Positions 3,774-21,719 of a DNA stretch of 37,503 bases are shown here, one piece after another. The translations under genes were made by a program, and so were the position numbers. The notes below the pieces were generated by a model. That model saw nothing but the letters and a program-made list of their open reading frames with translations. It searched no databases and had not been told where the DNA came from. Source of the stretch: Nesterenkonia sp. PF2B19 (GTDB lineage Bacteria; Actinomycetota; Actinomycetes; Actinomycetales; Micrococcaceae); contig NZ_MDSS02000035.1 of assembly GCF_001758425.2 (NCBI RefSeq), positions 1 through 37,503 on the forward strand, in the 5' to 3' direction. The stretch's first letter is position 1, and every line of letters starts with the position of its first letter.

Positions 3774-5041
3774 GCGTCCACCACCTGACGGCGGCGCAGC
3801 AGGCCGGCCAGACCCCCACGAGTGCGGCCGGGGCGCAGCAGCCACAGGAAGAACGGGGCCCCGACGGCGGCGGTGAAGATCCCGATGGGCACCTCCGTGG
3901 GTGCGGCGGCGGTGCGGGCGCCAGATCCGCGGCCGCCAGGAACAGAGCGCCTCCGAGGACTGCGACCGGCAGCATCAACCGGTGGTCCGAGCCCACCAGC
4001 AGCCGGGCGGTGTGCGGGATGATCAGCCGACGAAGCCGATGCCGCCGCAGACCGCCACCACCGAGGCGGTGAGCAGGGCGGCCAACGCCAGGGAACCGAG
4101 TCGCAGGGCATGGACGTTGACGCCCAGAGCTGTGGCGGTCTCATCCCCGGCCATCAGCGCGTTCAGACCCCGGGCGTTGAGCGCGGCGAAGACCAGCACT
4201 CCCACCAGCACGATCGTCGGCAGCACCAGCTGGCCGAAGGAGGCCGCCGAGAGGCTGCCCAGCAGGAAGAACATCACGGAGAAGACCTGGTGGGCGTCGC
4301 CGGTCAGGGTCAGGAAGCTGGTGACCGCGCTGAGCAGCGAGCCCAGCGCCACCCCGGCGAGGATGAGCCGGGTGGGGACCACCACGCCGTCCTGCCGGGC
4401 GCAGAGGAACACGGCGCCGGTGGCCGCCAGAGCACCCACGAAGGCGGCCAGGGAGATCGACAGCCCGCCCAGAGCCGCCGAGCCGAAGGAGATGACGGCG
4501 ACCGCACCCAGGCCCGCCCCGGAGGAGACTCCGAGCAGGTAGGGCTCGGCCAGCGGATTGCGCACCACCGCCTGCATGAGGCACCTGCCAGCGCGAGGCC
4601 GGCGCCGCCGATCAGGGCCAGCAGGACTCGGGGGAGCCGGAAGTGCCAGACCGCCTGATCCTCCAAGCCGGTGTAGGTGCCGTCACTCATCCACGGCATG
4701 CCGGGGATCAGATGCCCGAGGATCAGGCGCCCGGCATCACTCATGCTCAGGCTGATGGGCCCGGTGGAGACCGAGAGCAGCACGATGGCGACGATGCCGC
4801 CCAGCAGCAGGGCCACGATCAGGCGCTGGAAGCGCAGCACCCAGCGGCGAGTGGCGGCCACCCGCCGGCCGGTGCTGCTGAGTGCGTGGTTCTCCACGTA
4901 CTCCCCCGTGGCGGCCGCCGGGGCGACGGCGAGGGCGGCCTCGACGGAGGGAGCCTCGGCGGAGGGGGCGGGGCCGGCGTCGGCGGAGGGCACGGGGCCC
5001 CGGCGCAGATCGGCGGAGAGCATGGGAGGACGCTGGGTCAC
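3770..5041 (-). CDS. FecCD-family ABC permease (three apparent frameshifts)
   Basis: Multi-pass inner-membrane permease of the siderophore/haem/cobalamin family. It opens with a cytoplasmic Ala/Pro-rich leader of about 60 residues, then the first membrane segment (about 4760-4820). The family signature RNPLAEPYLLGVSSGAGLG follows (about 4500-4570), then a string of hydrophobic helices and a C-terminus at 3770. The conserved reading changes frame near 4578, 4022 and 3925. At 4022 the text GGCTGATCATC needs one extra C to give the expected G-L-I-I-P-H-T-A-R. The total of about 423 codons fits a FecCD permease with an N-terminal extension. The GTG start at 5041 coincides with the predicted transcription start. 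First gene of the operon. Confidence 0.75.
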
Positions 5042-15740: not shown

Positions 15741-17222
15741 TCACCGCTCAGAGAGCCGGAACCTCAGCCGATAGGGGTCCAGCAGGGACGGCATCTCCTT
15801 CTCCCGCCCCAGGCTGTGCGAGAGCAGGTCCACTTCGCGGCTCTCCAGCACCCGGGCCAGCAGGCTGGAGGTCACCAGCAGCACCAGCTGCCGCCCCGGA
15901 CAGATGCCCGTCCCCAGGCTGAACGGCATCAGCGGCCAGGCCTCCCCGTCGGCGTCCCGCTGCGGGTCTCCCTGCGCGTCCCGACGCAGCCCCTCCTCCC
16001 AGACCTCCGGGGCGAAGCGGTGGGCGAAGTCCAGGTTCCGCTCGTCACGGTGGAAGTAGGGCGCGAAGATCAGCACCGAGACGCCGGCGGGCATGATCCC
16101 GTGCTCGAACTCCACCTCCATGGTGGTCTCGCGCAGGATCAGCGGGGTGGTGGGCCACAGGCGCAGAGCCTCCAGCACCGTGGCGCGGAGCAGCTCCAGT
16201 CGGGCCACTCCCCCGCCGGATTCGTCCTCGGCCTGCAGGCGCACGCTGCGCAGCCGCGCCGGATGCGAGGCCAGCAGCGCCAGCGCCCGGAACGTGGCCA
16301 TGCCGGCGGGGTCGAAGGCGAAGAGCCACTGCGGCACCTGGTGCTCCGGTCGGCCGCCGTCGGCATCCAGGGCCCCGTCCGCGTCCTGCTCCTGGGCCTG
16401 CGCCATGACGGCGGCCAGGCTGCCGGGCTCGGCACGGTCCAACGCGTCGCGGATCCGGTCCAGGAAGTCTTCCCGAGCCTCGTCGTCCACCGGACGCAGG
16501 AAGGCGAGGTTCCCGCGCTCACGCAGCTCGTCCAGCAGCGTGGTCAGCTCCTCGTCGTCGCGGGCGAAGTCACCGAGCACCAGCCGCCGCACGATCCGGA
16601 ACCACGCGCTGCTGAACCGCTCCCAGTCGAGGGCGCCGCCGTCGTCGTCGGCCTCGGCGAGCATCTGGTCGGCCTCTTGGTGGACCACAGGAAGGAAGGA
16701 CTCCGCCATCCGATGCACCGGATGCTCCGGTTCGAGGACCGCTTCGTTGAGCCGACGCCGCACCGCCCGGTCCCCGCCGTGGGAGATCAGTGAGACCCCC
16801 GGCTGGAAGTGCTGCAAGGCATGGCGCTTGAGGGTCTCCGCGGCGGCGAACGGCTCCGGGGTGCGGTCCAGGATCCGGTGCACATGCTCCGGGTCCAGCA
16901 CCAGCGCCAGCGGCCGGCCGGGCAGCGGCACCAGCAGAGGTCCTCGGCCGTACTTCTCCGCCAGCGCCTGCACCCGGCGCACCGCACGGCCCTCCAGGTC
17001 GAGCCGTTCGACGGCGGCCACGACGCCGGGCCGTCGCGTGATCGGCCCCTTCGCCGCCATGGGGGTGAGCACCTCGGCGAGGATCTGCAGCGTCTCGGCC
17101 GGCGTCGCGCGCGGCAGCGGGTTCTGCACCGAGCTGGGGGTCGGCGGGGTCCCGATGGTTCGAGGCCCCGGGGTATGAGCCTCGGACGACCGCTTCTCGG
17201 GGACAGGGGGATGCTGGGTCAT
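15741..17222 (-). CDS. Cytochrome P450
   Basis: 493 residues, soluble, with no N-terminal membrane anchor. The haem-binding loop PFSLGTGICPGRQLVLL contains the thiolate Cys441, the K-helix E-x-x-R is seen as EALRLWP, and the later region FAPYFHRDERNLDFAHRFAPEVW is normal for P450s. The I-helix reads FDPAGMATFRAL and lacks the usual acid-alcohol pair (D/E-T) that delivers protons to bound oxygen, so it may use peroxide, another proton path, or be specialised. ATG 17222 is preceded by AGAGG; an in-frame GTG at 17231 overlaps that RBS. No ferredoxin or reductase gene lies nearby. It is divergent from cstA. The substrate is unknown. Confidence 0.9.
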   Translation of the reverse strand: MTQHPPVPEKRSSEAHTPGPRTIGTPPTPSSVQNPLPRATPAETLQILAEVLTPMAAKGPITRRPGVVAAVERLDLEGRAVRRVQALAEKYGRGPLLVPLPGRPLALVLDPEHVHRILDRTPEPFAAAETLKRHALQHFQPGVSLISHGGDRAVRRRLNEAVLEPEHPVHRMAESFLPVVHQEADQMLAEADDDGGALDWERFSSAWFRIVRRLVLGDFARDDEELTTLLDELRERGNLAFLRPVDDEAREDFLDRIRDALDRAEPGSLAAVMAQAQEQDADGALDADGGRPEHQVPQWLFAFDPAGMATFRALALLASHPARLRSVRLQAEDESGGGVARLELLRATVLEALRLWPTTPLILRETTMEVEFEHGIMPAGVSVLIFAPYFHRDERNLDFAHRFAPEVWEEGLRRDAQGDPQRDADGEAWPLMPFSLGTGICPGRQLVLLVTSSLLARVLESREVDLLSHSLGREKEMPSLLDPYRLRFRLSER

Positions 17223-17487
17223 GTCAGGCACCTCTCACAGGGGTGTCTCGGGGTCGGTCTCCGGCATGCGGCGCCGCGCTCCAGGCGTTCGGCGCCTCCT
17301 CGCCCCGGCGGGGCCGGGGCGGCGTCCCTCCTCCTCAGCCAGGGTAGATCGAGTCAGCGCCTCAGGACAGGCCCTGCGGCCTGAGGTCACCGTGACGGGG
17401 GTCTCACGCGAGTAGCATGTCAGGCATCACTGGCATCGTGTCCCGGGGGCTCAGTGTGGAGCCTGCCCGAGAGAGAGTAGGGAGATC

Positions 17488-19206
17488 ATGGACGGGCCCA
17501 ATGCACTCATCCTGGCCGTCATCGGTGTGACGATGATGCTGGCCGGGTACTTCCTGTACTCCAGGTTCCTGGCCAAGAAGGTCTACAAGCTCAATGCGGA
17601 GTTCAAGACGCCGTCGCATGAGTTCCGCGACGGCGTGGACTTCCTCCCCACCAACAGGTATGTCCTGTGGGGCCACCACTTCACCTCCGTGGCCGGAGCG
17701 GCACCCATCGTGGGTCCGGCGGTCGCGGTGATCTGGGGCTGGCTGCCCGCCTTCCTGTGGGTGACCATCGGCACCGTGTTCATCGCCGGCATGCACGACT
17801 TCGGCGCCCTGTGGGCCTCGGCCCGCAACAAGGGCCGCTCCATGGGGGCGCTGTCCGGCACCTACATCGGCAACCGGGGGCGCAACCTGTTCCTGGTGGT
17901 CATCTTCCTGCTGCTGCTGATGGTCATCGCCGCGTTCGCCGTGGTGATCTCCGGCCTGCTGGTCTCCCAGCCCACGGCAGTGATCCCCACCTGGGGCGCG
18001 CTCATCGTCGCCCTGCTGGTGGGGCAGGCGATCTACCGGCTGCGCTGGAACCTCGTGGCGATCAGCTCGGTGGGCGTCGTCGCGCTCTACGGGCTGATCC
18101 TCGTCGGGGACCGCTACCCGGTGGAGCTGCCCGAACAGTTCATGGGCCTGGCCCCGGAGGGCCAGTGGATCGTGCTGCTGTTCGTCTACGCGGCCATCGC
18201 CTCGCTGCTGCCCGTGTGGGTGCTGCTGCAGCCGCGGGACTTCATCAACGGCATCCAGCTGTTCATCGGCCTGGGCATCATCTACGGCGCCGTGCTGCTG
18301 GCCACCCCCACGGTGGTCGCCCCGGCCTACAACCAGCATGTCCCTGAGGGGACGCCGGGCATCGTGCCGCTGCTGTTCGTCACCATCGCCTGCGGGGCGA
18401 TCTCCGGGTTCCATGGGATCGTCTCCTCCGGCACCAGCGCCAAGCAGCTGGACCGCGAGACCGACGCCCGGTTCGTGGGCTACTTCGGCGCGGTCGGCGA
18501 GGGTCTGCTGGCCCTGGGGGCGATCATCGCCACCACGGCGGGCTTCCAGACCATCGCTCAGTGGGAGGAGGTCTACGAGTCCTTCGGCGCCGGCGGCGTT
18601 CCCGCCTTCGTGGAGGGTGGGGCCTCCATCATCAACTCCGGACTGGGCCTGCCGGCCGGTCTGTCCGCCACCATCCTGGCCACGATGACGGTGCTCTTCG
18701 CCGCCACCACCTTGGACACCGGGGTGCGCCTGAAGCGATTCGTGGTGCAGGAGATCGGGCAGATCGCCGGAGTGCGGATCGGCACGGGCCCGGCGACGGC
18801 GATCGTCATCGTCATCTGCGCGGCGCTGACGTTCTCCCAGGGCGCGGACGGCGCGGGCGGCCTGACCATCTGGCCGCTGTTCGGCACCACCAACCAGCTG
18901 CTCGCCGGCCTGACGCTGACCATCCTGACCGTGATCCTGATCCGGAAGGGCCGCCCGTTCCTGCCGGTGCTGGTCCCGGCGGTCTTCGTGCTGGCCATGA
19001 CGATCTACGCGGCGCTGGTGCAGCTGTTCGACCTCTTCGCCGACGGCGAGTGGCTGCTGTTCACCCTGGACGTGGTGATCATCGTGGCGGCCCTGTGGGT
19101 GCTGGTCGAGGCCGTCATCGCCATGGGGCAGGCACGCCGCGGGGAGAGGGAGCCGGAGGACGACGTCGCTCTCACCCCCGAGCAGCGGCTGCCGCTGGAC
19201 CGGTGA
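17488..19206 (+). CDS. cstA: CstA-family pyruvate/peptide transporter
   Basis: Multi-pass membrane protein of the carbon starvation CstA family. Characterised members in E. coli (CstA, BtsT) import pyruvate; peptide uptake was proposed earlier. 572 residues with many hydrophobic segments and the conserved stretches RYVLWGHHFTSVAGAAPIVG (about residues 57-76), GTVFIAGMHDFGALWAS, GFHGIVSSGTSAKQL, DTGVRLKRFVVQEI and FGTTNQLLAGLTL. ATG 17488 is preceded by GGGAG. TAGCAT (17413-17418) upstream may be a -10, but no good -35 matches it. The stop overlaps the start of the next gene (GTGA), so transport and the following two proteins look coupled. Intact. Confidence 0.93.
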   Translation: MDGPNALILAVIGVTMMLAGYFLYSRFLAKKVYKLNAEFKTPSHEFRDGVDFLPTNRYVLWGHHFTSVAGAAPIVGPAVAVIWGWLPAFLWVTIGTVFIAGMHDFGALWASARNKGRSMGALSGTYIGNRGRNLFLVVIFLLLLMVIAAFAVVISGLLVSQPTAVIPTWGALIVALLVGQAIYRLRWNLVAISSVGVVALYGLILVGDRYPVELPEQFMGLAPEGQWIVLLFVYAAIASLLPVWVLLQPRDFINGIQLFIGLGIIYGAVLLATPTVVAPAYNQHVPEGTPGIVPLLFVTIACGAISGFHGIVSSGTSAKQLDRETDARFVGYFGAVGEGLLALGAIIATTAGFQTIAQWEEVYESFGAGGVPAFVEGGASIINSGLGLPAGLSATILATMTVLFAATTLDTGVRLKRFVVQEIGQIAGVRIGTGPATAIVIVICAALTFSQGADGAGGLTIWPLFGTTNQLLAGLTLTILTVILIRKGRPFLPVLVPAVFVLAMTIYAALVQLFDLFADGEWLLFTLDVVIIVAALWVLVEAVIAMGQARRGEREPEDDVALTPEQRLPLDR

Positions 19207-19481
19207 CGCTCCTGGCGGGGCTGCGGGCCCGGCTGCGCGGGGTCGAAGCGGGGCTGCGGGAGTTCTACGTGGCCCCGTACCGGCGCACGTTCGCGCGCGC
19301 CCAGCGCGACGAGGAGGACCTGTTCATGATGCTGGTACTCTCCGAGGCGCTGGGCGTGCCCAACCCTGCCTCCGGCACCACGTTGGAGCTGCTGCCGGAG
19401 ATGCTGGACCGGATGCACCAGTGGCATCTGCGGATGGGGATGGACCGCTCCCCGTTCGAGGAGCAGCTGGCCTGCTGCTGA
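19203..19481 (+). CDS. Small Cys-Cys-ending protein (cory-CC-star-like)
   Basis: 92 residues, soluble and helix-rich. It opens with an amphipathic LLAGLRARLRGVEAGLREFY, then APYRRTFARAQRDEEDLFMMLVLSEALGVPNP and a tail EEQLACC-stop. Ending in two cysteines directly before the stop fits the actinobacterial family I know as cory-CC-star proteins, often found beside ArsA-type ATPases, as here. Function is not established. The terminal dithiol could bind a metal or metalloid or be modified; this is inference. GTG 19203 overlaps the cstA stop (GTGA, 19203-19206), so it is made with CstA. Confidence 0.75.
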   Translation: MTLLAGLRARLRGVEAGLREFYVAPYRRTFARAQRDEEDLFMMLVLSEALGVPNPASGTTLELLPEMLDRMHQWHLRMGMDRSPFEEQLACC

Positions 19482-19504
19482 TCGGACCGCGGCTCGCCCT
19501 GCAC

Positions 19505-19546
19505 CCCTGACCGCACAGCCCTGACCACACAGCCCTGACCACTGGA
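19505..19546 (+). repeat. Three tandem 14-bp repeats before the ArsA-type gene
   Basis: CCCTGACCGCACAG, CCCTGACCACACAG and CCCTGACCACTGGA (19505-19546) lie end to end between two genes of an operon. The last unit runs into the RBS GGAAGGA of the next gene, so copy number changes would alter the spacing between the genes. Confidence 0.7.
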
Positions 19547-19558
19547 AGGACGCCTCGG

Positions 19559-20593
19559 ATGCTGCTCGACCTCGCCCGGGATCGCCGCGTGCTGTTCATC
19601 GGCGGCAAGGGCGGGGTCGGGAAGACGGCGGTGGCCTCCACGACGGCGCTGCACAGGGCCCAGCACAGCGCCCCGCAGGGTGCAGCGCGACAGGGCACCC
19701 AGCAGGGCGCCCGTGTCCTGGTGGTCTCCACGGACCCGGCGCATAATCTCGGACACCTGTGGGAGCGGGAGGTCGGCGATGAGGTCGTCACGCTCTGGGA
19801 GGACTGCGGCGCCCCTCCGGAAGTCCGTCCGGCTCGCCTGGACGGCGTGGAGATCGACCCGGAGGCCACCACGGCCGCGCATCTGGCCGACGTGGGAGAG
19901 ACGCTGCGGAGCATGATGCCGGCGCATCTGCACGGAGAGGTGGACAAGCATCTGCGGCTCGCCGCCCGCTCTCCGGGCACCCATGAGGCCGCCATCCTGG
20001 AGCGGATCGCGGCCCTGCTGCAGGATCACGGCGAGGACCACGACCTCATCGTCTTCGACACCGCGCCCTCCGGCCACACCGCCCGGCTGATGGCTCTGCC
20101 GGAGATCATGACCGCCTGGACCGAGGGGCTGCTGGATCGGCGCACCAGGGCTGAGCGGTTCGGCGCCGCGGTGCGCGCCCTGGACGGCGACGACGCCCCG
20201 GACGGGTCCTCGGCCGCGGCGCGCGACCGCCGGATCCGTCAGGTGCTCACCCGCCGTCGGAACCGCTTCGAGGCGATGCGGCAGGTCCTGTCCGACGCCT
20301 CCCGGTGCAGCTTCGTGATCGTGCTGACCGCCGAGCGGCTGCCGGTGCTGGAGTCCGTGGAGCTGCACGCCCAGCTGACCGAGACCGGGGTCGACGTCGG
20401 GGGCTTCGTGGTGAATCGGCTCGCGCCCCGTGACGCCGGCGACTTCCTGGCCGCACGTCGGGACCAGGAGCAGCGGCACCTCGACGAGCTGGGACGTCGG
20501 GTGCCCGGCGCCGTCGTCGACACCCTGCCGCTGCTGCGCGGCGACCTGGTCGGCGTCGCGGCCCTGGAGCGCCTCGGTGAGCACCTGCGCTGA
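19559..20593 (+). CDS. ArsA/Get3-family ATPase
   Basis: 344 residues, a single ATPase unit of the deviant Walker (SIMIBI) class. The P-loop GGKGGVGKT is at 15-23, switch [10 protein letters not shown] at 57-65 and switch [12 protein letters not shown] at 167-176. ArsA energises arsenite export and Get3 inserts tail-anchored proteins. Here neither the ArsA metal-binding cysteine triad nor the Get3 C-x-x-C is evident; only two scattered cysteines are seen. No arsB or arsR is nearby, so an arsenite pump is unlikely. An insert of about 16 residues ([16 protein letters not shown]) follows the first helix. ATG 19559 has RBS GGAAGGA. It ends the cstA operon; a partner role with the CC-tailed protein is inferred. 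Confidence 0.85.
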
Positions 20594-20718: not shown

Positions 20719-21597
20719 TCAGTCCTCCAGGATGCTGGTGAGCACGTCCACCAGGCCGTCCTCGTCCACATGGCCGGTGACCTCGTCCGCGACGGCCTTG
20801 ACCTCCTCGGGGGCCTGGCCCATCGCCACCCCGCGGGCGGCCCAGGCGAGCATCTCGATGTCATTGCGGCCGTCCCCGCAGGCCACCGTGGCCTCCAGAG
20901 GTGCGTCGAGCTTGCCGCGCAGCCATTCCAGCGAAGAGGCCTTGGTGACGCCGGCGGCGGCGATGTCCAACCAGGCGGACCAGCCCACCGAATAGGTCAC
21001 ACCCTGCAGCCCGATCCCCTCCACCGCGGCGGCGAACTCGTCGGCGGTGGAGTCGTCGGAGTTGACCACCAGGCGCACCGCCTCGGCCCGGCGCATCTGC
21101 CGCAGGCTGGTGCCCTGGGCCTGCAGGCCGAAGGACATGTCCTGGAACCGCTCGGTGGACAGGAACGTGCCCTCCGAGGTCTCGATGGCGTACTTCGCAT
21201 TGGGCAGCCGCTCCTGCAGAGCGTCCAGGGCGGGTGCGGGGTCGAAGATCCGGCGGTCGATGACCTCGTAGCCCTCGGACTGTTCCAGATCGATCCTGAC
21301 CGTCACGCCCCCGTTGCTGCACACCGCATAGCCGTGCGTGACGCCGAGCATCTCGACGATCGGCAGCGTGGCCGGCAGCGACCTCCCGGTGGACACCACC
21401 ACGGTGTGGCCGTCGGCGACGACGGCGCGTCCCGCCTGCCGAACGGCCTCGGACATGTGACCATCATGATTGACCAATGTGCCGTCGACGTCGAGGCAGA
21501 CCATCGCCCGGCCCTGCTGGTGGACGAACGTCCCACCCAGGCCCGCCGCGGGGATGGAGAAGTCGGTGGTGTCATCGGTTCGGATGCTTGAGTTCAT
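20719..21597 (-). CDS. HAD-superfamily (Cof-type) sugar phosphatase
   Basis: 292 residues. HAD motif I is DVDGTLVNHDG with the Asp nucleophile pair, motif II STGR, motif III a Lys in GVTKASSLEWL, and motif IV GDGRNDIEML. The large cap domain between motifs II and III makes this a Cof/YbiV-type (class IIB) phosphatase, which acts on small phosphorylated metabolites such as sugar phosphates. ATG 21597 (MNSSIRTDD) is preferred; an upstream ATG at 21645 would add 16 polar residues. Neither has a strong RBS. It is divergent from an aldose epimerase gene, suggesting a link to sugar metabolism. Intact. Confidence 0.88.
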   Translation of the reverse strand: MNSSIRTDDTTDFSIPAAGLGGTFVHQQGRAMVCLDVDGTLVNHDGHMSEAVRQAGRAVVADGHTVVVSTGRSLPATLPIVEMLGVTHGYAVCSNGGVTVRIDLEQSEGYEVIDRRIFDPAPALDALQERLPNAKYAIETSEGTFLSTERFQDMSFGLQAQGTSLRQMRRAEAVRLVVNSDDSTADEFAAAVEGIGLQGVTYSVGWSAWLDIAAAGVTKASSLEWLRGKLDAPLEATVACGDGRNDIEMLAWAARGVAMGQAPEEVKAVADEVTGHVDEDGLVDVLTSILED

Positions 21598-21719
21598 ATC
21601 GCTGCCTGTAATGTCTCGAGTGTGGTCCGTCTCCTGGTGTGGCATGGTTCAGCTCACAGGGGAATGGTCCATTATGCCGGATCGTGCCAGGACAGGCAGA
21701 ATGACGGATGAACGGAAGA

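Follow-up and report, generated by a model that had tools for sequence, protein, structure and literature searches.

The operons closest to the one described here are those of Castillo and Saier (2010), who reported 26 associations of a CstA transporter with an ArsA ATPase in bacteria and archaea, 24 of them with a protein of about 90 residues, CstX, and who put forward the idea that CstA is energised by ArsA, CstX being a possible linker (PMC2963123; this and the other papers cited are drawn on in part). Section 3.2 of the same paper reports co-evolution of the CstA, CstX and ArsA trees. It alone names CstX and CstA together in the literature that we searched, and in this limited literature we found no functional test of a CstA energised by ArsA. 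Here we describe a member of this already known kind of operon from Nesterenkonia sp. PF2B19, in a stretch of 37,503 nucleotides (nt; contig NZ_MDSS02000035.1, positions 1 to 37,503; henceforth the window), where cstA is followed by genes for a small protein of the NCBIfam family cory-CC-star (henceforth CC-star) and for an ArsA/Get3-type ATPase. Like the operons of Castillo and Saier it combines CstA, a gene for about 90 amino acids and a single-domain ArsA of about 330 residues and has no arsR (PMC2963123), and CC-star, judged by gene set and size, is probably their CstX. An initial, sequence-only reading of the window had considered the ATPase and its partner functionally undescribed, a claim that is not supported, given the printed association and energisation proposal. 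In the parts of PMC2963123 drawn on here, neither the Cys-Cys tail nor the HxxH motif nor a thioredoxin-like gene is mentioned for these operons. What the present analysis would add, judged from sequence comparison, is a four-residue signature in CC-star, a paired absence, a fourth gene and a likely selenocysteine form of its product. The named family, the printed association, two invariant His and the fourth gene in relatives all go beyond the sequence-only reading.

A second point of comparison is E. coli K-12, which has btsT-yjiX-yjiA and cstA-ybdD, with YjiX and YbdD both ending in Cys-Cys and with no arsA beside cstA or btsT. YbdD and YjiX (PF04328, DUF466; KCU-star, NF033934) resemble CC-star in that they are small, adjoin CstA and end in Cys-Cys, or in Cys-Sec as selenoproteins, but they go with another CstA subtype, and their nucleoside triphosphatase (NTPase) partner, where present, is the GTPase YjiA. 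The order with yjiA is also found on Rahnella and E. coli plasmids; Xanthomonas and Paraburkholderia plasmids carry CstA and the small protein with no annotated yjiA adjoining in their incomplete gene tables, and the Xanthomonas record labels the small protein after CstA "CstA-like transporter-associated (seleno)protein". The YbdD family is listed as the KCU-star selenoprotein with the motif CU (PMC13188914 Table 1), and YjiA is a GTPase of COG0523, members of which carry a putative metal-binding CXCC motif (PMC2770081). Pyruvate uptake has been reported for E. coli CstA and BtsT, the values against wild type being given as 20% for loss of ybdD, 13% for loss of cstA and 25% for loss of both (PMC5847655), and in Salmonella yehU and yehT mutants cstA1, the next small gene and yjiA fall together (PMC3875573).

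A conserved three-gene unit

The genes for CstA, CC-star and the ATPase form a real three-gene unit whose linkage is conserved far beyond chance: among 58 distinct CC-star loci from Actinomycetota, Pseudomonadota and Bacillota, CstA lies directly upstream of CC-star in 57 and the ATPase downstream in 57, with both in place in 56. That the three genes might not be neighbours in relatives, which would have spoken against the sequence-only reading, is thus not what the survey found. The loci were drawn from 246 actinomycete genomes, of which 20 matched and 17 did so over the family cut-off; from 197 genomes of the window's family, of which 36 matched and the best 20 were taken; from one scan of named genomes (23 loci, in Rubrobacter, Nitrococcus, Salinisphaera, Endozoicomonas and others); and from plasmids (six records, three taken, of Pseudochrobactrum, Paracoccus and Cytobacillus). 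A motif filter demanding HxxH and a terminal Cys-Cys kept 64 of 69 matches, the window's own included, from which the 58 loci remained after removal of duplicates. It removed L024-L028 only, all below the family cut-off and from the two genomes of a CC-less branch described below; no match over the cut-off was lost, and the invariance of the filtered residues is to be read with caution.

The exceptions are a contig that begins 540 nt before the CC-star match (L020) and a metagenome-assembled genome with unrelated sequence at the expected ATPase position (L075); the ATPase of L078, much of whose sequence is masked or cut off, was counted by its P-loop alone. In 17 of the 58 loci a possible ATPase start codon lies inside the Cys-Cys codons or the stop of CC-star, and it is annotated as such in Paracoccus and Pseudochrobactrum. 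The CstA gene of a Halococcus plasmid has neither CC-star nor ATPase among its annotated neighbours, and Haloferax volcanii gives a CC-star signal below the cut-off.

In the window, all on the forward strand, cstA (17488-19206) encodes a transporter of 572 amino acids (PF02554, E 6.4e-134, 448.1 bits against a gathering cut-off of 27) of the short, CC-star-linked subtype; it is not the E. coli type of pyruvate symporter (NF011590, 222.5 bits against an equivalog cut-off of 1188). The CC-star gene (19203-19481) starts with a GTG at 19203 inside the cstA stop (GTGA), which gives an overlap of 4 nt, and its frame closes with TGC TGC TGA (19473-19481). Its product of 92 amino acids aligns from residue 14 to 92 with positions 3-80 of the 80 in NF041419, above the curated cut-off (118.9 bits against 80); this model carries a name but no stated function, the name cory-CC-star is absent from the literature searched, and the window protein has no Pfam match. 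A spacer of 77 nt (19482-19558), about half of it occupied by 2.7 copies of a 14-nt tandem repeat (19505-19542), separates CC-star from the ATPase gene (19559-20593), which starts with ATG and encodes 344 amino acids (TIGR00345, E 2.6e-58; PF02374, E 1.2e-50). The unit is flanked by a divergent P450 gene upstream (15741-17231, reverse strand) and a convergent HAD phosphatase gene downstream (20719-21645, reverse strand), and gene calls and family models find no arsB, arsR or arsD within it. In all these respects, the overlap and the Cys-Cys end of the 92-residue protein, the ArsA/Get3-like ATPase 77 nt behind it and the want of arsB and arsR, the sequence-only reading was accurate. Scans of the unit for promoters and terminators found nothing, which is weak evidence for such a genome.

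Signature residues and joint absences

Six columns are strictly invariant in the 58 CC-star rows: G51, H72, H75, G79, C91 and C92, with P55 kept in 57. The two His belong to His72-Gln-Trp-His75 (19416-19427, forward strand) and the two Cys form the terminal dithiol, encoded by TGC TGC directly before the TGA stop (19473-19478, forward strand). Between the second His and the Cys pair lie 12-15 variable residues, which would fit a mobile arm. By simple hydropathy, all 58 proteins stay below the value of 1.6 set for a transmembrane segment; this speaks against a client of the classical tail-anchored kind, and CC-star as a tail-anchored membrane protein is not supported. CstX was described with one transmembrane segment (PMC2963123). 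Neither CC-star nor CstA has a relative by sequence in the PDB.

That the four residues belong together is suggested by the CC-less branch, four small proteins in two of the 246 genomes (G034 and G037) which are homologous to CC-star (hhalign probability 90.8%, E 1.2e-6) and still sit between CstA and ArsA-type ATPases, and all four of which are without both His and both terminal Cys. This joint absence of HxxH and Cys-Cys suggests, as far as sequences can, that the four function as a single site. In G034, CstA is accompanied by a tandem pair of small proteins and by two ATPases, over two contigs that are not joined; in G037 it is accompanied by two small proteins and two ATPase frames. Paralogous pairs of CstX and ArsA described earlier can be likened to the arrangement in G034 (PMC2963123). 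One of the four CC-less proteins lies above the hydropathy value of 1.6 and one at it, and a plasmid search for the CC-less protein gave no match. In G034 (L097, L098) ArsA1 has Asn in place of the Asp of STDPAH and has lost GHT, and the other ATPase has DLVP for DTAP; the two may form an asymmetric heterodimer.

A second joint absence concerns CC-star and its ATPase. Three genomes, G173, G215 and G231, have a CstA nested in the CC-star CstA group and the fourth gene, but no CC-star match, and within about 3 kilobases (kb) downstream there is no cassette-type ATPase either. The comparison of ArsA-like proteins in these three covered the best match of each genome. In G173 and G231 this protein falls in a different group, to which it is 49-71% identical, as against 23-25% for the best cassette match; the group is also present in G009, G207 and G060 beside the cassette. 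The protein of G215 scores 116 bits and has at most 31.5% identity to any cassette ATPase. An ATPase tree took in three of the six outside ATPases, and five of the six were compared by BLAST; the node that joins 55 cassette and three CC-less ATPases has a support of 0.63. Judged from these genomes, CC-star and its ATPase appear to be gained or lost as a pair.

The ATPase itself passes the ArsA/GET3/TRC40 model TIGR00345 (197.9 bits against a cut-off of 135) and shares family, P-loop and switch motifs with these ATPases. Its motifs are intact: the P-loop GGKGGVGKT (19601-19627, forward strand), STDPAH with Asp59 (19733-19735, forward strand), which we take to be the equivalent of the catalytic Asp57 of yeast Get3, and DTAPSGHT (20057-20080, forward strand), presumably switch II. 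Across 55 complete cassette ATPases, which were chosen by their P-loop so that its conservation is not independent evidence, STDPAH with its Asp is present in all and DTAPxGHT in at least 90%. Residues 35-47 of the window protein (19661-19699) are a 13-residue insertion missing from at least 90% of the 55. Yeast Get3 has a CxxC at its dimer interface. The nearest solved structures by sequence are 3zq6 (E 3.9e-40) and E. coli ArsA, 1f48 (E 2.2e-38), and the CEFC of the archaeal 3zq6 aligns to residues without Cys. No Cys column is conserved in the 55 rows, the best having 21 Cys at position 157 (a His in the window protein) and 10 at C250; this agrees with the statement that the cysteines of ArsA are not conserved in single-domain homologues (PMC2963123), and the earlier remark that the ATPase is without clear metal-binding cysteines stands. 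An assignment as the ArsA of an arsenical pump (TIGR04291) was rejected at 110.3 against 650 bits: unlike that protein, the cassette ATPase has one domain, no conserved Cys and a unit without arsenical genes.

It follows that any metal or metalloid site would have to come in trans. The sequence-only reading had the terminal dithiol supply such a site, and of this the sequence part holds, as the ATPase has no conserved Cys and the Cys-Cys protein offers HxxH and Cys-Cys; the metal chemistry is conjecture.

The transporters fall into corresponding subtypes, which we compiled by hand from searches of the 246 genomes for CstA, YbdD, CC-star and the fourth gene. CstA was found in 67 genomes, YbdD in 26, a CC-star match in 20 (both CC-less genomes included) and the fourth gene in 14. 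A long, E. coli-like CstA is present in every one of the 26 YbdD genomes, at over 800 bits in 25 and fragmented in the remaining one (G013), and the CstA of the 20 CC-star genomes is short, being fragmentary in G124 and G194. One genome, G162, carries both systems at separate places, and three have the short CstA with the fourth gene only. In a quick maximum-likelihood tree of 58 CstA rows, which has long branches, all 26 CC-star CstAs (the window's included) and the three fourth-gene-only CstAs form one group of 29 (Shimodaira-Hasegawa-like approximate likelihood ratio test, 97) that stands apart from the YbdD-linked CstAs. YbdD proteins ending in Cys-Pro belong to one family-level group, f18 (L044, L049-L051, L053, L055, L056 and L060-L062). 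A further class of CstA, exemplified by L093-L096 and L100-L103, is accompanied by neither YbdD nor CC-star.

A thioredoxin-like fourth gene in relatives

In 26 of the 58 loci (L065, L072 and L083 among them) a fourth gene, with a product of about 135 residues, separates cstA from CC-star. A profile built from 20 sequences chosen for their CCGR motif finds none in the window genome. DPRN is present in all 26 proteins and CCGR in 24; one of the other two (L124) reads TGA-CGG there and the second (L020) is unreadable at its contig start. The corresponding motifs of G173, G215 and G231 are CCGR, CCGG and CCGT, respectively. Three of the proteins were scanned against Pfam and NCBIfam with no family over threshold; below it, one matched thioredoxin-like models (E 0.16 and 0.11), another CdsD_C (E 0.11) and the third nothing. 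The predicted structure is thioredoxin-like (predicted local distance difference test (pLDDT) 85, predicted template modelling score (pTM) 0.78), with the Cys-Cys loop itself below 60. A Foldseek search with this model gave 131 matches, none at E 0.001, headed by calsequestrin and then the thioredoxin MTH895, with three ArsD entries in the top ten (E 0.32-0.47; template modelling score 0.48-0.54 by target length). The metallochaperone ArsD has a vicinal Cys pair in the loop after strand 1. By its predicted fold the fourth-gene protein would share with it this position of the pair and the thioredoxin-like layout; by sequence it matches no family.

On the plasmid NZ_CP089998.1 of Cytobacillus spongiae the fourth gene, which again lies between cstA and CC-star, has its annotated start at an internal ATG. 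The longer frame (L124 4549-4920), preceded by a ribosome-binding-like sequence, contains a single in-frame TGA before its stop, at 4597, which aligns to the first Cys of CCGR; selA, selB and selD lie on the same plasmid. From its sequence the gene is likely to encode a selenoprotein that was annotated too short. A 9-base-pair hairpin follows the TGA and is unexceptional (z -1.5). A search limited to the 20 kb around selA and to L124 found no selenocysteine tRNA, and among the fourth-gene matches of the 246 actinomycete genomes none has an internal stop. A plasmid search with the thioredoxin-like protein gave no match, and a thioredoxin-like selenoprotein with the motif UC is not among the Table 1 entries drawn on from PMC13188914. 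Group II introns with reverse transcriptases flank the selD-selA region on both sides (L152, NZ_CP089998.1).

How the cassette may act on CstA

What would a small soluble protein and an ATPase do for a transporter? Probably the cassette switches or services CstA through a small metal- or thiol-based site. In its full form, which we put forward tentatively and at a confidence somewhat short of even, our proposal is that CstA has a dedicated accessory subunit whose His2Cys2 site is serviced by an ATPase of the SIMIBI class. CC-star would be a soluble, mostly helical subunit of CstA in which the HxxH pair and the C-terminal Cys-Cys arm form one His2Cys2 site, either to bind a soft metal or as a regulated dithiol; a dimer of the ATPase would spend ATP to load or strip CC-star or to hand it to CstA, and uptake would in turn be permitted or gated by CC-star, the part that YbdD plays for E. 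coli CstA. ArsA/Get3 ATPases and G3E GTPases such as YjiA are both SIMIBI-class P-loop NTPases. The proposal draws on gene order, the invariant residues, both joint absences, the intact ATPase motifs and the btsT-yjiX-yjiA-like layout, as read from the sequences; from these we infer the metal or thiol chemistry, the direct contacts, the dimer and the direction of ATP use. Pyruvate would be the transported substrate by family analogy only.

Several observations weigh against this proposal. The joint absence of the four residues comes from one branch and may be one evolutionary event, and the one usable CC-less CstA falls outside the CC-star group of the quick tree, on a long branch and in an unsure place, the second CC-less CstA being too fragmented for the tree. 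The AlphaFold2 model of the window's CC-star (21-row alignment) has helices 3-49 and 57-77, the latter carrying the His, and a tail that is loose, but it is weak (pLDDT 75, pTM 0.39, the last two blocks 61 and 55), and because of this low confidence a convergence of the four residues is not visible in it. None of the partners considered here accompanies CstA in 19 of the 67 CstA genomes, 15 with the further CstA class and four with the long type (G093, G143, G135 and G155, the last two partial). The parallel with YbdD has its limits, too: CC-star as a divergent YbdD (PF04328) was rejected (hhalign probability 1.4%, the two Cys-Cys tail columns alone aligned), so that, for want of detectable homology, the likeness is one of analogy and the cassette resembles btsT-yjiX-yjiA in layout only. 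Among the sampled Actinomycetota YbdD ends in Arg-Cys-Cys in 16 of 26 genomes and in Arg-Cys-Pro in 10, which implies that YbdD there does not depend on a vicinal dithiol, and a rough inspection of the downstream sequence at these 26 loci flagged no GTPase. We also found no metal, redox or binding measurement.

Three other explanations have to be set against these data. ATP hydrolysis by ArsA could turn CstA into a primary pump, with CC-star/CstX as the linker, in the way in which ArsA serves ArsB. The conserved linkage of CstA, CC-star and ATPase, the intact ATPase motifs and the reported co-evolution of the three trees (PMC2963123) would all be expected if this were so; that we nevertheless consider it unlikely is because CstA and BtsT of E. 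coli import pyruvate with no arsA adjoining (PMC5847655), because three genomes of the same CstA group are without the cassette ATPase, and because this ATPase has a single domain and none of the ArsA cysteines (PMC2963123). The ATPase could alternatively resemble Get3 in function and chaperone CC-star or CstA to the membrane, the Cys-Cys tail serving in recognition or quality control. A chaperone role for either protein, as had been suggested from the sequence, is possible, and the long predicted helix of CC-star and the solved relatives of the ATPase, which include Get3 structures and the single-domain 3zq6, are in its favour. Targeting of this kind is hard to reconcile with the hydropathy of all 58 CC-star proteins and with the fact that the CxxC of 3zq6 aligns to no Cys in the window ATPase, and we regard it as quite improbable.

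Finally, the terminal dithiol could be a metal-free redox switch that senses the thiol/disulfide state and gates uptake, with the thioredoxin-like protein as its reductant. A vicinal-Cys protein of this fold encoded between cstA and CC-star in 26 loci, its first Cys probably replaced by selenocysteine on one plasmid, is what such a switch would call for. Yet the switch leaves the two invariant His and the ATPase unexplained, and the thioredoxin-like gene is missing from 32 of the 58 loci and from the window genome; we give it a similarly small chance to that of the targeting model. The proposal of a serviced His2Cys2 site is the one that we retain.

A broader view can be taken, more doubtfully than the proposal itself and as a possibility that we think will probably not hold in full: that the same CstA module was built at least twice, each time from a SIMIBI NTPase and the cytosolic subunit that it charges, which has an arm ending in Cys-Cys or Cys-Sec. 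YbdD/YjiX with YjiA would be one version, and CC-star (His2Cys2) with the ArsA-type ATPase the other, which in many species would be supplied by a new carrier, thioredoxin-like and with Cys-Cys or Sec-Cys. If true, this would mean that the transporter is switched by metal or thiol status and not by carbon supply alone. CstA-family carriers import pyruvate or peptides on carbon exhaustion, and CstA of E. coli depends on the tiny YbdD. For a dependence of this kind the cassette offers a second, independent system with sharper clues, namely HxxH and Cys-Cys, a partner ATPase and, in relatives, a thioredoxin-like helper, in which a metal, redox or energising role of the accessory subunit is directly testable. 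If the His2Cys2 reading is true, ArsA-type ATPases would service a transporter subunit, besides their roles in arsenic efflux and with tail-anchored proteins.

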